From NCBI GenBank assembly GCA_913054135.1, contig CAJXJK010000001.1, positions 186,001 to 250,000 on the forward strand: a stretch of 64,000 nucleotides of DNA, read 5' to 3'. Origin of the DNA: an uncultured Flavobacteriales bacterium. GTDB lineage: Bacteria; Bacteroidota; Bacteroidia; Flavobacteriales_D; Crocinitomicaceae. Shown piece after piece: positions 41,625 to 52,199 of this stretch. The position numbers and the translations under genes are program-made. The notes beneath the pieces were generated by a model that made no database searches, was not told where the DNA came from, and saw only the letters and a list, made by a program, of their open reading frames with translations. Each line of letters opens with the position of its first letter. Position 1 is the first letter of the stretch.

Positions 41625-42671
41625 ATGAAGAAGAAAATTCTTATCACTGGAGGAGCAGGTTTTATTGGCTCTCATCTTGTAAGACTCTTTGTCAATAAAT
41701 ATCCTGATTATGACATCATCAATTTGGATAAATTGACCTATGCCGGTAATCTCAAAAACATCACAGATATTGAGAATTCTGCGAATTACAAATTTGTAAA
41801 AGGTGATATTCAAGACAAAGATTTCTTAGACTCACTTTTTAAATCTGAAAAAATAACTGATGTTATTCACCTAGCGGCAGAATCGCATGTTGATAGATCA
41901 ATTTCAGGACCAATGGAATTCATCATAACAAACATTGTAGGAACTGCTAATCTATTAGAAGTTGCCCGTTCAAATTGGGAAGGTGAAGACCACACATTTT
42001 ATCATATTTCTACTGACGAAGTTTATGGTTCTTTAGGAGAAGAAGGCTTCTTTTATGAAGACACTGCTTACGATCCTAGAAGCCCATATTCAGCTTCAAA
42101 AGCATCTTCTGATCACTTGGTAAGGGCTTATCATCACACTTATAATTTCCCTATCAAAATTTCGAACTGTTCTAATAATTATGGCTCACATCAATTTCCC
42201 GAAAAGTTGATTCCGCTTATGATTAATAACATTCGAAACAATAAACCACTACCCGTTTACGGAACTGGAGAAAACGTTAGAGATTGGCTTTGGGTTGAAG
42301 ATCATGCGAGAGCGATTGATGTAATTTTTCATAAAGGAAAAGTGGGAGAAACTTACAACATTGGTGGCTGGAACGAGTGGACAAACATTGCTTTGGTAAA
42401 AGAAATGTGCCGTATCATGGATGAAAAATTGGGCAGAGATACAGGTACATCTGAAAAACTAATCACATACGTTACAGATAGAGCGGGCCATGATATGCGT
42501 TATGCAATTGATGCCACAAAAATCAAAGACGAATTGGGATGGGTGCCTTCTTTAGAATTTGAAGAAGGCCTAGACAAAACAATCGACTGGTATTTGAATA
42601 ATGAAGATTGGATAAATAATGTCACTTCTGGCGATTACCAAAAGTATTATGATGAGCACTACTCATCATAA
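41625..42671 (+). CDS. rfbB: dTDP-glucose 4,6-dehydratase
   Basis: The 348-residue SDR has KILITGGAGFIGSHLVR, HLAAESHVDRSISGP, YHISTDEVYGSLG, PRSPYSASKASSDHLVRAYHH (YxxxK pair) and NNYGSHQFPEKLIP. Also VRDWLWVEDHARA. These are specific for RmlB/RfbB, which makes dTDP-4-keto-6-deoxyglucose, precursor of rhamnose and other deoxysugars. No rmlA, rmlC or rmlD is visible in the window, so the final sugar cannot be named. Its 3' end overlaps the converging gene by 13 bases. Confidence 0.94.
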   Translation: MKKKILITGGAGFIGSHLVRLFVNKYPDYDIINLDKLTYAGNLKNITDIENSANYKFVKGDIQDKDFLDSLFKSEKITDVIHLAAESHVDRSISGPMEFIITNIVGTANLLEVARSNWEGEDHTFYHISTDEVYGSLGEEGFFYEDTAYDPRSPYSASKASSDHLVRAYHHTYNFPIKISNCSNNYGSHQFPEKLIPLMINNIRNNKPLPVYGTGENVRDWLWVEDHARAIDVIFHKGKVGETYNIGGWNEWTNIALVKEMCRIMDEKLGRDTGTSEKLITYVTDRAGHDMRYAIDATKIKDELGWVPSLEFEEGLDKTIDWYLNNEDWINNVTSGDYQKYYDEHYSS

Positions 42672-43435
42672 CCTGATAAGCTCAACTTAATCTTTTCTGG
42701 CTGATCAAACTTTGGACTTTGCTTACCACTAAAAATCACCACAGCATAAAGAAATGGCCTCTTACTTCTATTCAGGCTTTTCTCTTCTATTCGAACTGAA
42801 ATTCCGATTTGAGAATAATTCCCTTTTTTCAATTTGTTAAAGGCTTTACTCTTCTTCATTTGCTCTAAAAATGCCTGACATAATTGCGCCTCTGATTTTG
42901 CCTCGAGAGGAACAGGCTCAACATAATCAGGATGATTTTCATTCATGATTTTAGGTCGTACTCCTTCGTACAAACTCAAGTCAGATGTTTTCACTCTTCT
43001 ATCAAAGAAAAACTTCTCATTCTTTTCAAGATCTAAGAGATCAACCATTATCCCGAAAGAAACAAACCTTCGGTGAGGCACCTTTGCCAACTTCAAAGCG
43101 TAATCGAAATTCTTTTGTTCTCTTTGCCAATAAACCTTATTCTTAAATCTCGAAGACGAAAATTTGAGAACGGCAGAATTACAAATCTTATTGAGCGAAG
43201 AATCTTGCTCAAGACGTTTTAACTCCAATGATTCAATCCAGCCATTTGCAGCACTTATGAAATAACCTGAAATTTCTTTTCTATCAAAATCTTCTACATC
43301 TATTTTTGAGGATCCACCCGAAGTTTCCTCAACCAAGAATGGATAAGCTTTGTTCAAATGAACCAAAAATTTTCGGTTTTGAGAATAGGCGTTTGCAAAA
43401 GCGAATAGCGATATGTAAACAAGAATTATTCTCAT
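42659..43435 (-). CDS. Secreted protein of unknown function
   Basis: The 258-residue protein has a signal peptide (VYISLFAFANAYS-Q). The C-terminal segment YSQIGISVRIEEKSLN/RPFLYAVVIFSGK vaguely resembles the end of CAP/SCP domains (IG-hydrophobic strand then Y-V-F-G), and SSRFKNKVYWQREQKNFDY precedes, but the His/Glu residues of that family are not evident. It is best left as unknown. It starts directly after the stop of the LRR protein gene (no spacer) and is therefore probably in the same operon. Confidence 0.55.
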   Translation of the reverse strand: MRIILVYISLFAFANAYSQNRKFLVHLNKAYPFLVEETSGGSSKIDVEDFDRKEISGYFISAANGWIESLELKRLEQDSSLNKICNSAVLKFSSSRFKNKVYWQREQKNFDYALKLAKVPHRRFVSFGIMVDLLDLEKNEKFFFDRRVKTSDLSLYEGVRPKIMNENHPDYVEPVPLEAKSEAQLCQAFLEQMKKSKAFNKLKKGNYSQIGISVRIEEKSLNRSKRPFLYAVVIFSGKQSPKFDQPEKIKLSLSGYDE

Positions 43436-46009
43436 TTATGGCTTCAACTCTTTTATGAAATCTCCGGCAGATGTCTCTCCAACATCTATCATTTTCAACT
43501 CAATCTTTTTGTCATCCATCTTCTCTTTCCAATTTCGGTAAACACCTACTAAAGTTCCGGTAAAGAATACCACAAAGACGTTCTTAGATTCACCATCAAA
43601 AAAGGCTTTTCTCTTATCCTTAAAAGTAATTACACCATTGGTGGTTCTATCCAAAACAGTAATTGCAGTTGGCTCCTCATCAATCATTCCGCCGGCTACT
43701 GAACTGAAGGCTTGAGAGAATGAGGTTGGACGCATCATTCTTCTTCTCGCGTCACAATTCCACAATCCAAATCCATTTATATTCAATGCCCTTTGAACTG
43801 AGGTTGAACTGGCGTCAGCATCCATATCGGCTTTGTACTTACGCTCCATATCCCACAGTCTTTCTTGTCTCATCTCTTCGTCTTTTTTTGCTTTCTTCAT
43901 TATCGCCTTTTTTTGCTTTTCCAATAGCGGACGAATCTTATCAGCATTTCTTTCTCTCTCTGACTTGTATTCACCATGTGAAATCAAGTATTTTTTATAG
44001 AACTTCTCTATTTCTTTTGAACTCGCTTTCTTTCCCTTTTTTCCAATCAATAAAACAGGCAAATTGAAAGTGGTGTCTTTAAAATTAAATGTCAGGATAA
44101 AATTATCTTTTGAATTATTCGGTTTCAATGATAATTCAGGTGAAAAGTTTGGGCCATTTTTGCTGTATGAATTTTCGGTTCCCTTAATTTTTAATCGACC
44201 ATATTTATGATTCATTTCTCTTGAAATATCCATAAGAACCTCATTTGTAGCCCTTGAAGCATCACCATCATACACAAAAGTGTACTGAGATAAAAAATGA
44301 GATCGCTCATCACGTATAGTTTCTTCAATGTTCAAACCAGTAAATTTTACATCTTCTTCAGGTAAAACCGAAACTAGTCTATCAAATGATATCGTAAAAT
44401 CTTCAAGACGTTCTCCTCTCCCCACCATTGGTTTATACCTGTGTCTATATCTCTTTATTTGATTCAATTGTATCTCATAAAAATCTTGATTCATCACTGA
44501 ATCCAACAACCTTTGATCAACCTTAAAAACCTCTTCAACCTTGTCGGTTCCTTGCATTTGCCAAACTCCATTTTGATCCATTTGCCAAACAGGCATTGAT
44601 TGGTTATCGGCAGTTGCAGCAAAAGTCACATCTACCGTCTTTCCTGGCTTTAATGCTAATTCATTACCCTTATTATCTTTTGCCTCAATGTTAAACATCC
44701 CACCTGATGAAAGCATAAAGGTTTCATCTTCAGAAGTTGTTGTCATTGAAATTCCGGATAAAAATATTTCTTCAGGTGTGGTGTATTCAGTGTACTCTAA
44801 CTTAACTGGGCCAGTATATAAACTTCCATCAGCAGAAACAAAACTCTCTTCAGGGAAGTCAAAAGTTGCTTTTCCAATTCTTACTTTCTGAGCTTTATCT
44901 GCCTTAATTTTTTTGATTGTTGGTTTTTGGACGTACTCTGCAAATGGAGGCGCAATGCCTACTGAAGGTTGAATCACTTCACCATAAACCATATTCATTT
45001 CAGGCTTATTCTCAGCCAAAGCTTTTAATGACGATTGCGGAATTGAATTCCCTCTAATATCCAGCCATGAAACGGTTGACATTTCACTAATTGCAGTAAT
45101 ATCAGAGATCACATTTGATTGAATATCCAAACTGTCTATCTCCAATTGCAAGAAAGGAATCAGGTCTACTGAAACCATTTTTCTTAGGCCAACATAATTA
45201 GTAGTTTCGCTTGTATTAATTGAAGCTATAGTAGCTTCAGCATTATTAAAGACACAATCTTCAAAAACGAGTTTGCCGATTTTAGGAGAATACTCTGTTC
45301 TCGGAAACTTAGAAATTGTAGATGATTTGATGATCAATTCTTTTGCACCAAATAGGGCAAACTGCTCAGGGATTGCTGTTAGGTAAGAAACTGTTACACT
45401 TTCTAATCCATCCATAAAGCTCAAGCTCATCAGTAACTTCTCACTGTTCACACCTGAATTCCCAGAGGCATCAATTGTTTTTAATCCCCACCAATAATCC
45501 GCAATGCTGCTGATGTCTTTGAGTTTGTTGTTTGCTAAATTAATATCTCTGAGTTTGCTCATAGACATCATTGAATAAGGCAAAACAGTCAAATAGTTGT
45601 CGGCCAAGTTTAATTTTCGCAGTTCTCTTTGTATTGGAACTCCGTCAGGCAAAAAGAATAATGCGCTAGCCGAAAGATCAAGGCTGTTTAATGAAAAGCT
45701 GCAGCTATCAAAAAGGTTCATCAAATCAAACTGACTCATATTTTGATTCTTAGATAAGTCAAGATGCTTAAGTGTTGAAATCTTACCTAAATCAGAAGGA
45801 ACTTTGACAAAACCGTTATTCGCGACACTCAGCCAGGTCAAGTTTTTGCAGGCCAAGACCTCAGAAGGAAACTTTGTTAAGCCCTTGTTTGATAAATCAA
45901 TTTCGGTAATCTCCATTTCATTCCCCTTGATTTCGCTTATCTCTGTTACTCGATAAGCAAAGAGGAAGGAAGTTATGAAGAGGGAAAAAGTTAGTAATAA
46001 GAGTTTCAT
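43436..46009 (-). CDS. Leucine-rich-repeat protein with two lipoprotein-shared C-terminal domains
   Basis: The 857-residue protein has a signal peptide (residues 1-18). About ten leucine-rich repeats cover residues 35-345 (LSNKGLTKFPSEV, LSVANNGFVKVPSDL, LNLADNYLTVLPYS, IDSLDIQSN). Residues 375-490 form a beta-rich domain with GKATFDFPEESF, LSSGGMFNIEAKDNKGNEL, LALKPGKTVDV and DQNGVW. Residues 744-857 start INGFGLWNCD and end around a GVYRNW...IELKMIDVG block. Both align with the lipoprotein at 47448. A Lys/Glu-rich helical stretch (about 660-730) lies between. No enzymatic motif is seen. It is probably surface or periplasmic, and heads an operon with the gene at 42659. Confidence 0.78.
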   Translation of the reverse strand: MKLLLLTFSLFITSFLFAYRVTEISEIKGNEMEITEIDLSNKGLTKFPSEVLACKNLTWLSVANNGFVKVPSDLGKISTLKHLDLSKNQNMSQFDLMNLFDSCSFSLNSLDLSASALFFLPDGVPIQRELRKLNLADNYLTVLPYSMMSMSKLRDINLANNKLKDISSIADYWWGLKTIDASGNSGVNSEKLLMSLSFMDGLESVTVSYLTAIPEQFALFGAKELIIKSSTISKFPRTEYSPKIGKLVFEDCVFNNAEATIASINTSETTNYVGLRKMVSVDLIPFLQLEIDSLDIQSNVISDITAISEMSTVSWLDIRGNSIPQSSLKALAENKPEMNMVYGEVIQPSVGIAPPFAEYVQKPTIKKIKADKAQKVRIGKATFDFPEESFVSADGSLYTGPVKLEYTEYTTPEEIFLSGISMTTTSEDETFMLSSGGMFNIEAKDNKGNELALKPGKTVDVTFAATADNQSMPVWQMDQNGVWQMQGTDKVEEVFKVDQRLLDSVMNQDFYEIQLNQIKRYRHRYKPMVGRGERLEDFTISFDRLVSVLPEEDVKFTGLNIEETIRDERSHFLSQYTFVYDGDASRATNEVLMDISREMNHKYGRLKIKGTENSYSKNGPNFSPELSLKPNNSKDNFILTFNFKDTTFNLPVLLIGKKGKKASSKEIEKFYKKYLISHGEYKSERERNADKIRPLLEKQKKAIMKKAKKDEEMRQERLWDMERKYKADMDADASSTSVQRALNINGFGLWNCDARRRMMRPTSFSQAFSSVAGGMIDEEPTAITVLDRTTNGVITFKDKRKAFFDGESKNVFVVFFTGTLVGVYRNWKEKMDDKKIELKMIDVGETSAGDFIKELKP

Positions 46010-46194
46010 AATGTAGTATTTGTAGATGACACAGCTTTTTTTGCAGCATCATCAAGATAATAAAATTGAATTCTACCCTGCATATTTACAGCTTTTATTT
46101 TTCAGACATTTTAGGTTTGTAAGTACCTCAACCACAATAATCAAACCAGGTTAAGAACAGTTTCCTTTTATTAAATGTAAGACAATTTAAAAGG

Positions 46195-46219
46195 TAACTA
46201 TGTTACATAAGAATAGTTA
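46195..46219. repeat. Inverted repeat in the 46010-46269 gap
   Basis: TAACTAT (46195-46201) is complementary to ATAGTTA (46213-46219) around an 11-base loop. It lies between the LRR gene start and the DUF2891 gene end. The remainder of this 260-base gap is AT-rich with no recognisable gene. Confidence 0.35.
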
Positions 46220-46223
46220 AAAT

Positions 46224-46277
46224 AGGGTTAATGGTTACAATAAACGATAATTGAAATTAGATTATTGTTTCAACCCT
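46224..46277 (-). terminator. Possible long hairpin at the end of the DUF2891 gene
   Basis: AGGGTT (46224-46229) pairs with AACCCT (46272-46277), and CAATAA (46238-46243) with TTATTG (46262-46267). The structure spans the DUF2891 stop. On the minus strand it is followed by ATTTTAAC, so a weak terminator or 3' stabiliser is possible. Confidence 0.28.
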
Positions 46278-47346
46278 CCTTAATCTCTAAAGCATAAACT
46301 AAGAAAGAGGCCAACCAATGGCTGCCCATATAGTCAGAACCTATCACTTGACCTTTTGAAGCCTTCAAATGCTCATCAGCCAGTTCTCTCAACATCTCCG
46401 ATTGCTTTGGAAGCGACTTAGACAAGGTGAATAAGCACCATGCTCTTGAGAAATTTAAACCGTCTAAGTGGACTAGCTTACCATCTGTTCGGTCAATCAC
46501 TTTTCCTGGCTCTAAGTCAAAATCTTTCTCAAAAATTTGAGGTAAGAATTCTTCAATCCATTTTTTAAACTCCTTTGGCTCTAACACTTTTGACATGAGT
46601 TCTGCCTCTTGCAAACAAGGCGAAATGAAGTCAAATCCACTTGGTTCCCAGCTTAAAGGACATCCATTATCATTCATATAAAAATCTTTAGCTCTACTTT
46701 TTAAAAGAGTCAAGAACTCATCATCTTGGGCAATTACAGCATAATCAAAAGCCAGTGATAAACCAAAGGCTGAGTTGGTATGCTCCCCTACTCTAATTGG
46801 GTAAGACATTTTAGGTAAGAATTTTTTATAATTAGTCACTACTTGATCAACAAGAGATTGAAGATTTGCTGACCATTGATGCTCTTTATTCAAAGGGCTT
46901 TGTGTAAGCTCAGCTTGAAGTTTTAATAACCAAGCCCAGCCATAAGTACGCTCATATGATTGATTCACTTTAGGCTGAAAATACAATAGCTCTTTTTGCA
47001 CATTGGGTGTAGAAAACTGCTGGTCAAACAACTCTGATATTTCTTTTGCTTTTTGAGAATCTGGAAATTTATTCATGACCTTAGCCATCAACCAATGTCC
47101 GTGTACTGACGAATGCCAATCAAAACATCCATAAAAAATGGGATGCAATGATTTTGGATTATCTATATGAGACGAGTCGGCAAGCACCTGACCTAACTTA
47201 TTAGGATACTCTTGATGAATACAATCTATTGGCACCTGAACCAACTTTTCAGCATTTTCTAAAGTCAATTCTAAACTCTGAATTTGATTCTGAGCTAATA
47301 CATTGATTGAAAGGATGATTGCCAAAAAGATTCCTAGAATTCTCAT
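46270..47346 (-). CDS. DUF2891 family secreted protein
   Basis: The ATG at 47346 is used (MRILGIFLAIILSINVLA-Q gives a good signal peptide); the TTG at 47364 is part of a -7-like box. The mature protein (about 340 residues) has FYGCFDWHSSVHGHWLM (about 65-81), the DUF2891 signature. Also RTYGWAWLLKLQAEL, RVGEHTNSAFGLSLAFDYA, GCPLSWEPSGFDFISPCLQEAEL, FSRAWCLF and SDYMGSHWLASF. The family is an (alpha/alpha)6-barrel-like group related to glycoside-active enzymes, but its reaction is not established to my knowledge. It is single on its strand. Upstream, TATTTTTG at 47369-47362 is an exact -7 box match. Confidence 0.85.
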   Translation of the reverse strand: MRILGIFLAIILSINVLAQNQIQSLELTLENAEKLVQVPIDCIHQEYPNKLGQVLADSSHIDNPKSLHPIFYGCFDWHSSVHGHWLMAKVMNKFPDSQKAKEISELFDQQFSTPNVQKELLYFQPKVNQSYERTYGWAWLLKLQAELTQSPLNKEHQWSANLQSLVDQVVTNYKKFLPKMSYPIRVGEHTNSAFGLSLAFDYAVIAQDDEFLTLLKSRAKDFYMNDNGCPLSWEPSGFDFISPCLQEAELMSKVLEPKEFKKWIEEFLPQIFEKDFDLEPGKVIDRTDGKLVHLDGLNFSRAWCLFTLSKSLPKQSEMLRELADEHLKASKGQVIGSDYMGSHWLASFLVYALEIKEG

Positions 47347-47361
47347 ATCTCTAATTTTGCT

Positions 47362-47369
47362 CAAAAATA
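47362..47369 (-). promoter_or_regulatory. Candidate -7 box TATTTTTG for the DUF2891 gene
   Basis: TATTTTTG on the minus strand ends 15 bases before the ATG at 47346. A TTTG lies 24 bases upstream, slightly beyond the normal spacing. Confidence 0.35.
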
Positions 47370-47447
47370 AGGTATTCTACCTACTTTCCATTTCAAACGT
47401 TTTGTTACTTTTATTAGAAATACCCATTATTCTATTAAACACGAATT

Positions 47448-48746
47448 ATGAGAACAGTTATACCTACATTGATACTTTCAGGTCTATTATTCAGTTGCGG
47501 AGGAGATAATCCCGCAGATGACGGAGAGTTAACATCAGAAGAAGTAAACAGCATTATAAACTCACCTTTAGAAGGTGATTTTCAAAATGATGCCGAATTT
47601 AAATTTGACCCAACAAAACCGGCCACATTTGAAACACCAAATGGCAGCTCAATTGAAATACCAGCCAATGCTATCGTAGATGAGAATGGAGACCCGGTTA
47701 AGAAAAAGGTTGACTTAACATTCACGCAATATCACTCAGCTGCTGATCTAATGGCTTCGGGAATTCCTATGGAATATGATTCTGCCGGAACTTCAAATCA
47801 TTTTGAATCAGCCGGAATGTTCTCATTGGATGCAAGAGTAAAAAAGAAAAAGGTGTTTTTAAAAGAAGGAGAGTCCATCAAAGTGAACCTGGCCTCTGAT
47901 AAAAATGATCAAATGAATTTTTATGAATTAGATGAGAAAACTGGAGATTGGACTTATGACCCAGCACCAGTCACACCAATTGCAAACCCTAGTTTTGATC
48001 GTTCAAAATATCCAATCAAACCTGTTAAGAGAAATAAGAATGCTTTTGTACTTGACCTTGATTTTGACCTTTCTGACTTTGATGAATTAGAAGCCTTTTC
48101 AGGGATTGTTTGGGAGTACTCAGGAGATCACGATTCTTTAGACCCAAGAAAAAACCCAGTTGTTTCAAGCACAGAATGGACTGATTTTGATTTGGAGCCA
48201 ACATATGATGAAGCATTTGAATACTGGTTAGTAATGAACAGAAATAGAAAGTTGACATATAAAACCAAAGTGAAGGCTGCTCTTCAAGGAGAAGATTTTG
48301 AAAATGCAATGGCACAATACAAAGACAAGAAAATTGAAATTGCAGCAAAAAGAGATAGTTTGAAAAAGCCATTTATCAGATCAGTTGAAATTGGCGGATT
48401 CGGAACCTTCAATTGCGACTATATTCATAGCATGATGGATCCTGAAGAGATGATTGCTGACTTTGATTTTGGGAGCGAAGATTTAAAAGCTAGATCAGCT
48501 GTTTTCGTTATGTACCCTGAAACTGAAGTGGTAGTGAATTATTATCAACCACCTTATACAATGTTTGCCTTAGATAAGGCACAACCATACGAAATTCTAG
48601 CAATTTTACCTGGAAACAAAGTAGCAGCTTATAAAGGTGACGCTACAAAGTCATATGGTAAAAGTGAATTCACTTTCAAAATGGATATTGTAGCTGAAGG
48701 TGTGCAGACCAAAGCTGATTTTGAAAGAACAATTGCGGGGCTGTAA
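47448..48746 (+). CDS. Lipoprotein homologous to the C-terminal half of the LRR protein
   Basis: The 432-residue protein has a lipobox (ILSGLLFSC, C17). Residues 58-170 contain PATFETPNGSSIEIPANA, DLMASGIPMEY, ESAGMFSLDARV, VFLKEGESIKV and DEKTGDW. They align in order with residues 375-490 of the LRR protein (44540-44887). Residues 315-432 start IGGFGTFNCDYIHSMMDP and end in EFTFKMDIV, matching INGFGLWNCD/RRRMMRP/IELKMIDVG there. A Lys-rich helical stretch lies just before, as in the LRR protein. The fold may be ZU5-like, but I do not recognise a named family. It is joined to the WG-repeat gene with no spacer. Confidence 0.75.
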   Translation: MRTVIPTLILSGLLFSCGGDNPADDGELTSEEVNSIINSPLEGDFQNDAEFKFDPTKPATFETPNGSSIEIPANAIVDENGDPVKKKVDLTFTQYHSAADLMASGIPMEYDSAGTSNHFESAGMFSLDARVKKKKVFLKEGESIKVNLASDKNDQMNFYELDEKTGDWTYDPAPVTPIANPSFDRSKYPIKPVKRNKNAFVLDLDFDLSDFDELEAFSGIVWEYSGDHDSLDPRKNPVVSSTEWTDFDLEPTYDEAFEYWLVMNRNRKLTYKTKVKAALQGEDFENAMAQYKDKKIEIAAKRDSLKKPFIRSVEIGGFGTFNCDYIHSMMDPEEMIADFDFGSEDLKARSAVFVMYPETEVVVNYYQPPYTMFALDKAQPYEILAILPGNKVAAYKGDATKSYGKSEFTFKMDIVAEGVQTKADFERTIAGL

Positions 48747-51700
48747 ATGAAGCAATTCTTAATCGCCATCATATGTCTTATTGGTTTTCCTTTGATAGGG
48801 AAATCTCAAGATGTGTTGCCCATTGCCAAAGATGGTAAATGGGGATTGATTGACAATAACGGAAACTTTGCTCTCAAGCCAATATACGATTACATTGAAT
48901 TCAAATGGAGAGGCAATAAGTTCATCTATAACATCAATGGTAAGGTTGGCGTTTTAAATGTGGACGGTTCAGTTTACTCAGAGCCAGAATATGAAGCCAT
49001 AGAGTTTTATAGTAAGGTGATGGTCAGTTCAAAACTGAATGGAAAATGGAAATTAGAAGAGAACGGAGAACTCATCACACCTTCAACTTTTGACACCATT
49101 TATGAGTTGAACCAAAATTTAATGGCCCTTCAAAATGATGAAGAGTTCACAATTTACAAGAGAGACAATAAGGCCTTTTCAGATCGTACCTACGAAGCAA
49201 TTTCTAGATACGGTGGATTTTTACATGGTCATATTTTGAATAGTGAGAACCATGACCTAATGGACATGGAGACATTAGAGATCATTGCTAGTGATGTCGT
49301 GAAACTTGCAACTTTCGGAAGAAGACATGGCATCATCAAGTTTGCGGATAGTATGCAGCTTTATGGGAAAAAAGATCTGGAGCTAATCGGACCGAGATTT
49401 CAATATATCGAACATCAATTTGATGAGTATTTCCTTTGCAAGAATGACACAAACTGCTTTTTGTTGAATCAAAACACCAAAAGCTACAAACCAATCAAAA
49501 ACGTAGATGATATCAATGACATTCAAGGAAATTTGATGGTTTATACCAAAGATGGTCTATCCGGAATTGTTAATCTCAAAACAGGAAAACAGGTATTCCC
49601 CGCAAAATATACTTCCCTCGCTCTCAAAGGATCTACCATTTTCACTAAGAATGGAAATTTAATTGGGATTGCAAAAACGTCAGGAAAAGAGATTTTGCCC
49701 GCTATTTACAATGACATAGAAGATTATGGTAATTTATATGTTGTAAGAAAGGCCAGGTTTTTTGGCATCTGCAATTTATCAGGAAAAGAAGTAGAAAGAT
49801 GCAGGTATCGAGAGATTTCTGTCTTTGACAAAAACATTAAATGCTACCACAAAAAAACACTCACAACTTTAAATATCAGTGAGGCAGGAACCGTAGAAGA
49901 CAGAACAGTTTACGATACGTACATGAAGGTAAGTTTCACTAAAGCAAGAAAGCCAAGAAATAGTAGTACTGACGTTTCGTTTGGTAGATCAAATGGAAAT
50001 AGAAATAGAATTAACACTGCTGCAAACATGAAAGGTTGGTATCAGAGAGAGATGAAAAGGGTCAAAAATGATACTGTTACAACTGTATATGGAAGTTGGG
50101 GCCTAAAAGGAGATGACGATTCGCTCTTAATCAAATATCAGTACAGACATCTTGAATTTCCGAGCGATAAATACACTTTTGGATATAGAAAAAGACCTCT
50201 AAAAAACTTAAATAGTGATCGAGCATTATTGACTGCAAGAAAAAGACAACTTGTGTATGATATCACAAAAAAATCAGCAAGTGACTATAAGGCAGTTGCA
50301 GCCACGGCTTATTGTCTAGGACTATTTCAGGTAGTGAATCAAATTGGAAAATACAAATTAAACCCTCGGGCAAAATTTAAGGCCCTCAATTATTTTGATT
50401 GGGATTACTATGCATTAGCAAGAGGTTGCACAAAAACAGGAGTATTGGTTGACTCAGGTGGATATGTTCGTTTTGATAGCTTAACATACATAGGTAACTA
50501 CTCTGAAAACAAACTCTTGGTTTGTGAAGGTGGAGAAGCTGAGTTAAGAAAAAAGGAGAATGAATCATCTACAAAAGGTGTTAGATCATTTTACTGGAAT
50601 ATGGGCTTTACTGCTATTGATGGAGACCGTGAATATCCTTATTATAGAATTAAAAAAGGCAAATGGTTTTTCATTAATAAAGATGGAGAGCGCATGAATG
50701 AAGAGCCGTTTGATTTTGCTTTTGATTTTCGAAACAACACAGCAATAGTTTTGAGAAAAGGAAAATGGGGTGTGGTTGACACAAATATGACTGAGATTGT
50801 TCCTATCGCTTATGAATATGTTTCTAGAAGTTTTGTTGAAAATCAACAGTTCTTTACGGTTACGACCACTTCAAAAGGAAGCTACTTATACAACAGAGGC
50901 AACAGCTCTTATGAACCAACAGAAATCAGTTCATTTTCAAACTATAATGATGAGGTTCTATTAATGCGCAAACCAGGTATTAAACACGGCCCGTACGGAT
51001 TAATTGATACTAACTATCGTCAAATATATGATTACAAAATAGAAGAGGTTATTTCATATTGCAATGATTATATGGTCATTAGAGAAGGACAAGGAGATGA
51101 AGAAATACACAAAGTGATTAACAGTTCTGGTAAAGTCATATTTGATGATATAAAAGGAATCAGAATCTTCCCTTTACCATACGGACGTTATAAAATTCAA
51201 AAATCAAAGTCTAATTTTTATGTGATTGATAAATCAGGAAAAATTCTAATTGATAGGTTTAAGGCTTATAAGCTCATTGACATGAATGAAGATTGTATCG
51301 TGTATTTTGATTCTAATTTAGAAGTAAAGGTTTGGAGCAAAAATCAAATCCAAATTCCACCTAAGAAATTTGTTTTAAAAGGGTTCAACCCAAAAAACAA
51401 TTATGCATTGCTGCAAAAAGGCAAGAAATGGCAATTCATATACTCTCTAAACGAAAAGAAGTTTTTGCTTTCTAAATTGACTAATGTCTATCGATTAGAG
51501 GATGAAGGATATCTTTTTAAAGATGATAACGAGAAGATTGGAATGGCACATTATAATGGAACTGACACCTTGTTTCAACCAACTTATTCTGATTTCTTGT
51601 TTGAAGGAAAAGACTGGACATTTGCGAAGTTAGACTACAAAACAAAAGTATTGATCAACCGAAAGGGAGAAAACATTAATGGAAAAGAGTATGCAGAAGT

Positions 51701-52199
51701 TATTAGAAACGAAGATCATTATATCGTCAAAGAGAAAAATGATAGTTCAGGCATCATGCTCTTAGATGGCAAAATGTTGATTCCAACACATTGCAGTACG
51801 GTAAGCAAAAAGAACAATTGGTATTATGACGCGAATTTGAAAGATAAATCAGTCAGATACAATTTGGATGCTGAAATCATACACACCTATGAAGCCAAGG
51901 CCGGATGGGGACTATTTCCTAAGGGCGTAGCATTTTCAGATACAAAATTTGATTACTTCAGTTCTTATGAAAATCCGTACTTAAGATTTAAGGATATCCA
52001 ACCAATTTCACAAGATCAATTCATTGTAGGCCAAGAAAAAGTTTATGGTGTTTACAATGATATTGGAGATACAATTGTTCCTATTGAGTTTCACCGCATT
52101 TCGTCAACAGTGAGAACATTTAGTGTAAGATACTTCAATTCTTATGGACAAATAGATACAAAAGGAACCGTATTATTTGATGCTAAAACAGCCAAATGA
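48747..52199 (+). CDS. WG-repeat secreted protein
   Basis: The 1150-residue protein has a signal peptide (AIICLIGFPLIGKS-Q) and many WG (KWG/YWG) repeats of roughly 25-35 residues, such as KDGKWGLIDNNGNFALKPI, NGKVGVLNVDGS, KGKWGVVDTNMTEIVPIA, KIGMAHYNGTDTLF and YGVYNDIGDTIVPIEF. The repeats occupy about 20-370 and 620-1150. A basic, different segment lies between (about 390-600, with RNSSTDVSFGRSNGNRNR and ATAYCLGLFQVVNQIGKY). WG repeats are thought to form beta-hairpin binding modules; no enzymatic role is known here. It begins immediately at the stop of the lipoprotein gene, so the two are cotranscribed and likely interact in the envelope. Confidence 0.82.
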   Translation: MKQFLIAIICLIGFPLIGKSQDVLPIAKDGKWGLIDNNGNFALKPIYDYIEFKWRGNKFIYNINGKVGVLNVDGSVYSEPEYEAIEFYSKVMVSSKLNGKWKLEENGELITPSTFDTIYELNQNLMALQNDEEFTIYKRDNKAFSDRTYEAISRYGGFLHGHILNSENHDLMDMETLEIIASDVVKLATFGRRHGIIKFADSMQLYGKKDLELIGPRFQYIEHQFDEYFLCKNDTNCFLLNQNTKSYKPIKNVDDINDIQGNLMVYTKDGLSGIVNLKTGKQVFPAKYTSLALKGSTIFTKNGNLIGIAKTSGKEILPAIYNDIEDYGNLYVVRKARFFGICNLSGKEVERCRYREISVFDKNIKCYHKKTLTTLNISEAGTVEDRTVYDTYMKVSFTKARKPRNSSTDVSFGRSNGNRNRINTAANMKGWYQREMKRVKNDTVTTVYGSWGLKGDDDSLLIKYQYRHLEFPSDKYTFGYRKRPLKNLNSDRALLTARKRQLVYDITKKSASDYKAVAATAYCLGLFQVVNQIGKYKLNPRAKFKALNYFDWDYYALARGCTKTGVLVDSGGYVRFDSLTYIGNYSENKLLVCEGGEAELRKKENESSTKGVRSFYWNMGFTAIDGDREYPYYRIKKGKWFFINKDGERMNEEPFDFAFDFRNNTAIVLRKGKWGVVDTNMTEIVPIAYEYVSRSFVENQQFFTVTTTSKGSYLYNRGNSSYEPTEISSFSNYNDEVLLMRKPGIKHGPYGLIDTNYRQIYDYKIEEVISYCNDYMVIREGQGDEEIHKVINSSGKVIFDDIKGIRIFPLPYGRYKIQKSKSNFYVIDKSGKILIDRFKAYKLIDMNEDCIVYFDSNLEVKVWSKNQIQIPPKKFVLKGFNPKNNYALLQKGKKWQFIYSLNEKKFLLSKLTNVYRLEDEGYLFKDDNEKIGMAHYNGTDTLFQPTYSDFLFEGKDWTFAKLDYKTKVLINRKGENINGKEYAEVIRNEDHYIVKEKNDSSGIMLLDGKMLIPTHCSTVSKKNNWYYDANLKDKSVRYNLDAEIIHTYEAKAGWGLFPKGVAFSDTKFDYFSSYENPYLRFKDIQPISQDQFIVGQEKVYGVYNDIGDTIVPIEFHRISSTVRTFSVRYFNSYGQIDTKGTVLFDAKTAK

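Follow-up and report, generated by a model that had tools for sequence, protein, structure and literature searches.

The LRR-core protein and the lipoprotein at the window locus

The stretch of DNA analysed here (the window; 64,000 nucleotides from an uncultured Flavobacteriales bacterium, contig CAJXJK010000001.1) includes two divergent genes, encoding a leucine-rich repeat (LRR) protein and a lipoprotein that share a common core. The LRR-core protein (857 amino acids (aa); 43436..46009, minus strand) has a Sec-type signal peptide without a lipobox, as read from its N-terminus, and is recognised by Pfam LRR_8 at E 3.6e-14 (PF13855, 52.7 bits against a cut-off of 27). Its LRR domain (residues 20-345; 44975..45952, minus strand) is defined by LRR_8 and LRR_4, and the predicted model of this domain matches LRR structures, the best being that of Leptospira 4u06 (Z 26.8). 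A gene for a secreted 258-aa protein (42659..43435, minus strand) follows, its start abutting the stop codon of the LRR gene. On the plus strand, the 432-aa lipoprotein (47448..48746), with the lipobox LFSC and Cys17, is followed by a gene for a secreted WG-repeat protein of 1150 aa (48747..52199, plus strand; PF14903, E 4.1e-13, 49.5 bits against a cut-off of 25.6), the start of which abuts the lipoprotein stop. These two gene pairs are referred to below as the LRR and lipoprotein modules. A gene for a DUF2891 protein (46270..47364, minus strand; PF11199, E 4.9e-131) lies between them. The region also contains nucleotide-sugar dehydrogenase, dehydratase and CpsB-like genes, which we take to be a polysaccharide-gene setting, and this setting of both modules is common to near relatives only.

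The LRR protein and the lipoprotein were aligned by BLASTP at 27% over 104 residues (E 2e-8). A second, C-terminal block (RALNINGFGLWNCDARRRMMRP/RSVEIGGFGTFNCDYIHSMMDP) was found at E 1e-4, and 1000 shuffles of the C-terminal part of the LRR protein gave at best 26.9 bits, as compared with 43.5 bits for the real sequence. When the 25 lipoprotein-type cores and the 6 LRR-type cores were each made into a profile, hhalign aligned the two with a probability of 100% and an E value of 6e-46; the alignment spans 402 columns, beginning where the LRRs end and reaching the C-terminus. As judged from sequence, homology over this whole length is certain, because the BLASTP, shuffle and profile-profile scores agree. 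An earlier note on this DNA had located the first matching region at residues 375-490 of the LRR protein (44540-44887); this position, on the minus strand, and those of both open reading frames were correct. Its proposal that one core serves in neighbouring operons, in one joined to LRRs and in the other free of them, is borne out by the BLASTP and profile alignments, and all of the residue pairs it quoted align except ATFDF/ATFET, which is nine residues out of register, ATFDFPEESF being aligned with SSIEIPANAI.

No match to the core was found in searches of Pfam, NCBIfam and PDB sequences, the matches in the window being those to LRR, DUF2891 and WG repeats, which agrees with the earlier view that no named family covers it. 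When the 65-row alignment was searched at E 0.1, 25 families were touched by scattered members, each in at most two. The core is a family without an existing Pfam or NCBIfam model.

Predicted fold of the core

The structure of the lipoprotein was predicted by AlphaFold2 with 65 relatives (pLDDT 89.6, pTM 0.81). In this model, the first conserved block and the GFG.[YWF]N.D motif form one domain, predicted to be ZU5/GAIN-like, which is split by an insert of ~130 residues and followed by a small C-terminal beta domain. Part one of the split domain comprises residues 45-180 (47580..47987, plus strand) and includes SGIPM, SAGMF and W168, the insert comprises residues 181-308 (47988..48371, plus strand) and includes the Lys-rich helix at residues 281-300, and the closing strands at residues 309-327 (48372..48428, plus strand) carry R311 and then F318-G319-x-x-N322-x-D324. 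The C-terminal beta domain takes up residues 328-432 (48429..48743, plus strand), of which 328-430 are delimited as a domain in the model. The first domain is regarded as split because the aligned range of the model runs from residue 48 to about 326, with strands at 48-179 before the insert and at 309-327 after it. Elements and strands occur in the same order in the model of the LRR protein, in which profile alignment and model place part one at residues 360-492 (44534..44932, minus strand), an insert of 245 residues with a long charged helix at 664-733 (43799..44533, minus strand), closing strands with INGFGLWNCD at residues 738-756 (43742..43798, minus strand) and the C-terminal beta domain at residues 757-857 (43439..43741, minus strand). 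The C-terminal parts had been described earlier as a second matching domain, preceded in each protein by a Lys-rich helix. They do match, and both helices are present, but these parts begin with strands of the first domain and the helices lie inside its insert. Among 168 members, G123, M124, N322 and D324 are invariant, G319 and W168 are conserved in 99% and R311 in 91%.

On comparison of the lipoprotein model with known structures by VIA-align, the best match was an ankyrin ZU5 domain (Z 10.1, 2.7 Å over 122 residues). Six ankyrin ZU5 entries were found at Z 9.3-10.1 (2.7-3.5 Å, 122-130 residues), and the ZU5 beta-sandwich was matched on the predicted model by 3kbt, 4d8o, 6m3r, 3ud2 and 3f59 at Z 9.8-10.1. 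Three GAIN domains of adhesion G-protein-coupled receptors (GPCRs) followed at Z 8.6-9.7, with other GAIN entries at 5.9-6.7; a single chain from a map of the sperm axoneme scored 9.2, and the next unrelated fold 4.7. The second row of the Foldseek output for the same model is the ankyrin-B ZU5-ZU5-UPA-DD tandem. The first domain of the core would thus have a ZU5/GAIN-like fold, as judged by the match of the predicted model. A Pfam match to ZU5 (PF00791) was found neither among the 65 members at E 0.1 nor in the window genome, and a search of a viral structure library gave no match.

In alignments with the GAIN structures 5kvm, 4dlq, 8vti and 7qu8, the last aligned residue of the model is F318, at the end left by cleavage at the GPCR proteolysis site (GPS). 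In GPR56 (5kvm), F318 pairs with residue 382; the next residue, Thr383, is the one that was mutated to prevent GPS cleavage (PMC7948743). If these GAIN chains end at the cleavage site, the alignment must stop there as well, and weight is placed on the agreement of four structures at residue 318. The position of the GAIN Thr/Ser nucleophile (P1') is taken in the core by G319, and hence self-cleavage of the GAIN type is not expected.

Distribution, gene partners and the sigma-linked branch

The core is present in 37 of 59 related genomes. Among 84,980 species genomes searched, 285 stretches carry it, 80 of which were kept. Nearly all of those kept are titled Bacteroidota, a few metagenome bins carrying other names, and Crocinitomix, Fluviicola, Flavobacteriales, Cytophagales, Saprospiraceae and Bacteroidales are represented. 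The cultured relative Crocinitomix catalasitica has a core gene too (L133). The core family is widespread across Bacteroidota, and its first domain alone, in shorter proteins of about 326-401 aa, is more widely spread in the phylum. A 328-aa distant two-part relative (L101:7703-8689) adjoins a core lipoprotein-WG pair. Core proteins of 558 aa (G000:C6:49436-50680 (L089), L092 and L094) have an extra N-terminal domain of ~130 aa, without a conserved neighbour among those looked at.

Gene partners were counted for 120 non-redundant core genes using simple open reading frame calling and custom profiles. In 49 of 78 lipoprotein-type loci (410-520 aa), the gene directly downstream on the same strand encodes a WG-repeat protein and is in most cases only a few bases away, and a gene for the 258-aa secreted protein is directly downstream of all eight LRR-type genes, with a gap of -8 to +1. 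Of the 24 core genes of 521-620 aa, 19 come directly after an extracytoplasmic function (ECF) sigma gene. Gaps between partner genes are mostly -4 to +30. Because loci were sampled by similarity to the window lipoprotein, the proportions of these classes are not population frequencies. Most core proteins outside the sigma-linked class carry a lipobox. Partner class tracks the tree of the core (139 rows), in which the labels for partner context require 13 changes, as compared with 69.6 when they are shuffled. All eight LRR proteins fall into a single clade (support 99), whilst the lipoprotein of the window groups with four relatives that are linked to WG genes (support 100). The two window genes are thus old paralogues that are now adjacent, given that the LRR and lipoprotein clades are separate, well-supported, old branches, and tandem duplication as the source of the pair was ruled out on the same grounds.

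For WG-repeat proteins (PF14903), the family to which the partner of the lipoprotein belongs, no description of a lipoprotein partner was found in the library of papers searched. The 258-aa protein was considered as a CAP domain, and this was left as a lead, the hint being weak (E 0.17, one of six members). Another branch of core lipoproteins is accompanied by an exported family of 230-280 aa with a conserved DFSIG.FQMKPSF (loci L082, L096, L107, L115, L123, L124, L133, L168, L174, L189, L191 and L195), for which a resemblance to a lysozyme-like hydrolase is not backed by any Pfam or PDB match. At L098 and L102, the core gene is located between a gene for a PQQ/BamB-like beta-propeller and a CHAP-domain gene.

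The most informative context is the sigma-linked branch, which was beyond the sight of the earlier reader. In this class, a hydrophobic segment starts near residue 43-59, which places the proteins in the N-in single-pass topology class, and the first 45 residues include a motif of about KINxDRxxLSxEEIxxxKNFD. A profile made from this cytoplasmic segment alone, excluding the transmembrane helix and the core, matches in 91 of 296 Bacteroidia genomes. In 64 of 64 segment proteins with a neighbourhood that was read, the gene just before, on the same strand, encodes an ECF sigma factor, though slightly fewer than 64 of these cases are independent because some of the fetched loci overlap (for example L213/L235 and L216/L236). 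The core is attached to 48 of the 64, and the remaining 16, with another or almost no periplasmic part, include seven mini-proteins of 75-91 aa and nine proteins with other domains. The neighbouring sigma genes carry Pfam Sigma70_r2 and Sigma70_r4 and TIGR02937, and no Pfam match, to FecR or otherwise, was found in the sigma-linked proteins scanned. The layout is that of an anti-sigma factor, with an ECF sigma neighbour, a cytoplasmic N-terminus and one transmembrane helix, and the segment is a candidate for a further, putative class of anti-sigma domain.

Mini-proteins that are approximately the segment plus one transmembrane helix lie directly behind an ECF sigma gene at L238, L240, L241, L242, L244 and L270. 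The window genome itself encodes a 267-aa sigma-linked protein (L234:3992-4795; contig 4, about 202-203 kb) with the segment and a different periplasmic part; its C-terminal part faintly resembles the C-terminal domain of GldM (E 0.04 here and 0.0023 for the relative L235).

Proposed role and relation to known systems

On balance, we favour the reading that the core is an extracytoplasmic module of Bacteroidota for docking or sensing a partner, deployed in three settings. The split ZU5/GAIN-like domain and the small beta domain would together bind an envelope partner. In the first setting, the lipoprotein core would dock the presumably co-transcribed secreted WG-repeat protein (the pair at 47448-52199), and in the second, the core fused behind LRRs would work with the likewise co-transcribed 258-aa secreted protein (the pair at 42659-46009). 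In the third, the membrane-anchored core would do the sensing, on the periplasmic side, for a putative anti-sigma factor of which it is part and whose gene directly follows that of an ECF sigma factor. The core would read the presence or state of its envelope partner, and in the third setting this reading would be relayed across the membrane to the sigma factor, which the segment may inhibit. The two window genes, which lie in a polysaccharide-gene region, would encode docking or scaffold proteins of the envelope.

Several points weigh against this reading. The model of the LRR protein is the weaker of the two (pLDDT 80, pTM 0.49), and the C-terminal beta domain matches known structures at Z 4-5 at best (SleC, CGTase and the BT_0210 LRR protein; top 4.7). 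Foldseek alone gave nothing below 0.001 for the lipoprotein model, alignment of the core by hhalign with eight bacterial ZU5-like regions gave probabilities of 2-3%, and the ZU5/GAIN assignment rests on predicted structure, without a Pfam or PDB sequence match. As the sequence searches were unconvincing, ZU5/GAIN is claimed as a fold only. Furthermore, the operon-like linkage points to joint expression and joint action of the partners and not to contact between them.

A less probable alternative is that the core is a structural or adhesive surface scaffold, holding exopolysaccharide or matrix for example, and not a sensor, the sigma-linked branch being a late co-option. Both window modules are within the polysaccharide-gene region, most members are lipoproteins accompanied by a secreted repeat protein of large size, an arrangement that adhesive pairs would show, and LRR and WG repeats are both binding scaffolds. 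However, the polysaccharide setting is limited to near relatives, and the sigma-linked members, which make up ~40% of the 139 non-redundant rows, do not form a late twig in the tree, although this tree is unrooted.

It is improbable that the LRR protein, the lipoprotein, the WG and 258-aa proteins and the DUF2891 protein form one envelope complex, as the earlier note had suggested. The five genes are adjacent in the window genome and in G010, and nearly so in the Crocinitomix metagenome-assembled genome (MAG) L120, but these are the only three genomes seen in which the two modules are side by side, and the modules, which belong to separate old clades, are mostly apart, with 49 lipoprotein-WG loci and 8 LRR loci. 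G001, G002 and G013 have the LRR, 258-aa and DUF2891 genes without a lipoprotein-WG pair at that locus, whereas G022 has the lipoprotein-WG pair and DUF2891 without an LRR module there. The pairing of the lipoprotein with the WG protein and of the LRR protein with the 258-aa protein, both part of that proposal, was recovered in the counts of gene partners. DUF2891 was found near either module among near relatives only (the window genome, G001, G002, G010, G013, G022 and some Crocinitomix MAGs) and is absent from most lipoprotein-WG loci elsewhere, which makes it a case of local synteny and not a general partner.

It is very improbable that the core signals by cleaving itself, as GAIN and the ZU5 of PIDD/NLRP1 do, with its last strand freed as the signal. 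In favour of this are the fold match, the stop of the alignment at the site of cleavage in all four GAIN structures named above, and the Gly-Thr self-cleavage proposed for FoxR, a FecR-type anti-sigma factor (discussed in PMC7186176), together with a Thr at position 320 after G319 in 20% of members. Against it are Gly at the nucleophile position (GPR56 Thr383) in 99% of the 168 members and Ile, Val or Leu at 320 in most.

The sigma-linked segment bears on how ECF sigma factors are controlled in Bacteroidota, which have many of them; only 6% adjoin a class I anti-sigma domain, and other classes have been suggested (PMC7406223). Control of the rest is the question at stake, and the finding of the segment behind an ECF sigma gene makes it directly testable. 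Like class I domains, the segment is cytoplasmic, N-terminal and adjoins an ECF sigma, but it is only ~45 residues long, with its own motif and without a Pfam match. FecR, PupR and FoxR resemble the sigma-linked core proteins in that they cross the inner membrane once, are encoded next to an ECF sigma factor and have a cytoplasmic segment as well as a periplasmic part rich in beta structure. They differ in the periplasmic part itself, which in PupR combines a novel fold of its own with an STN domain (PMC7186176), and in the FecR match. The core may uncover a class of regulators of sigma factors that has so far been missing. We hold more tentatively that the segment could be a new class of anti-sigma domain serving much of the seemingly partnerless ECF sigma complement of Bacteroidia, with a ZU5/GAIN-like domain as its commonest sensor, one also used as a lipoprotein and as an LRR fusion and so a shared currency of envelope sensing.

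By the fold of the predicted model, the core would be a bacterial counterpart of the animal ZU5/GAIN signalling domains, already joined to LRRs. In PIDD, ZU5 is placed after LRRs, as is the core in the LRR-core protein. The likeness to ZU5 (PF00791; ankyrin, UNC5 and PIDD) lies in the predicted fold over 122 residues, whereas the core has no detectable sequence relation to it, is split by an insert of 130-245 aa, and is bacterial and secreted or periplasmic, with its own invariant motif. The last strand of GAIN acts as a tethered agonist, and the last strand of the ZU5/GAIN-like domain matches the position of that strand in the predicted fold, but in the core a Gly replaces the Thr/Ser nucleophile.

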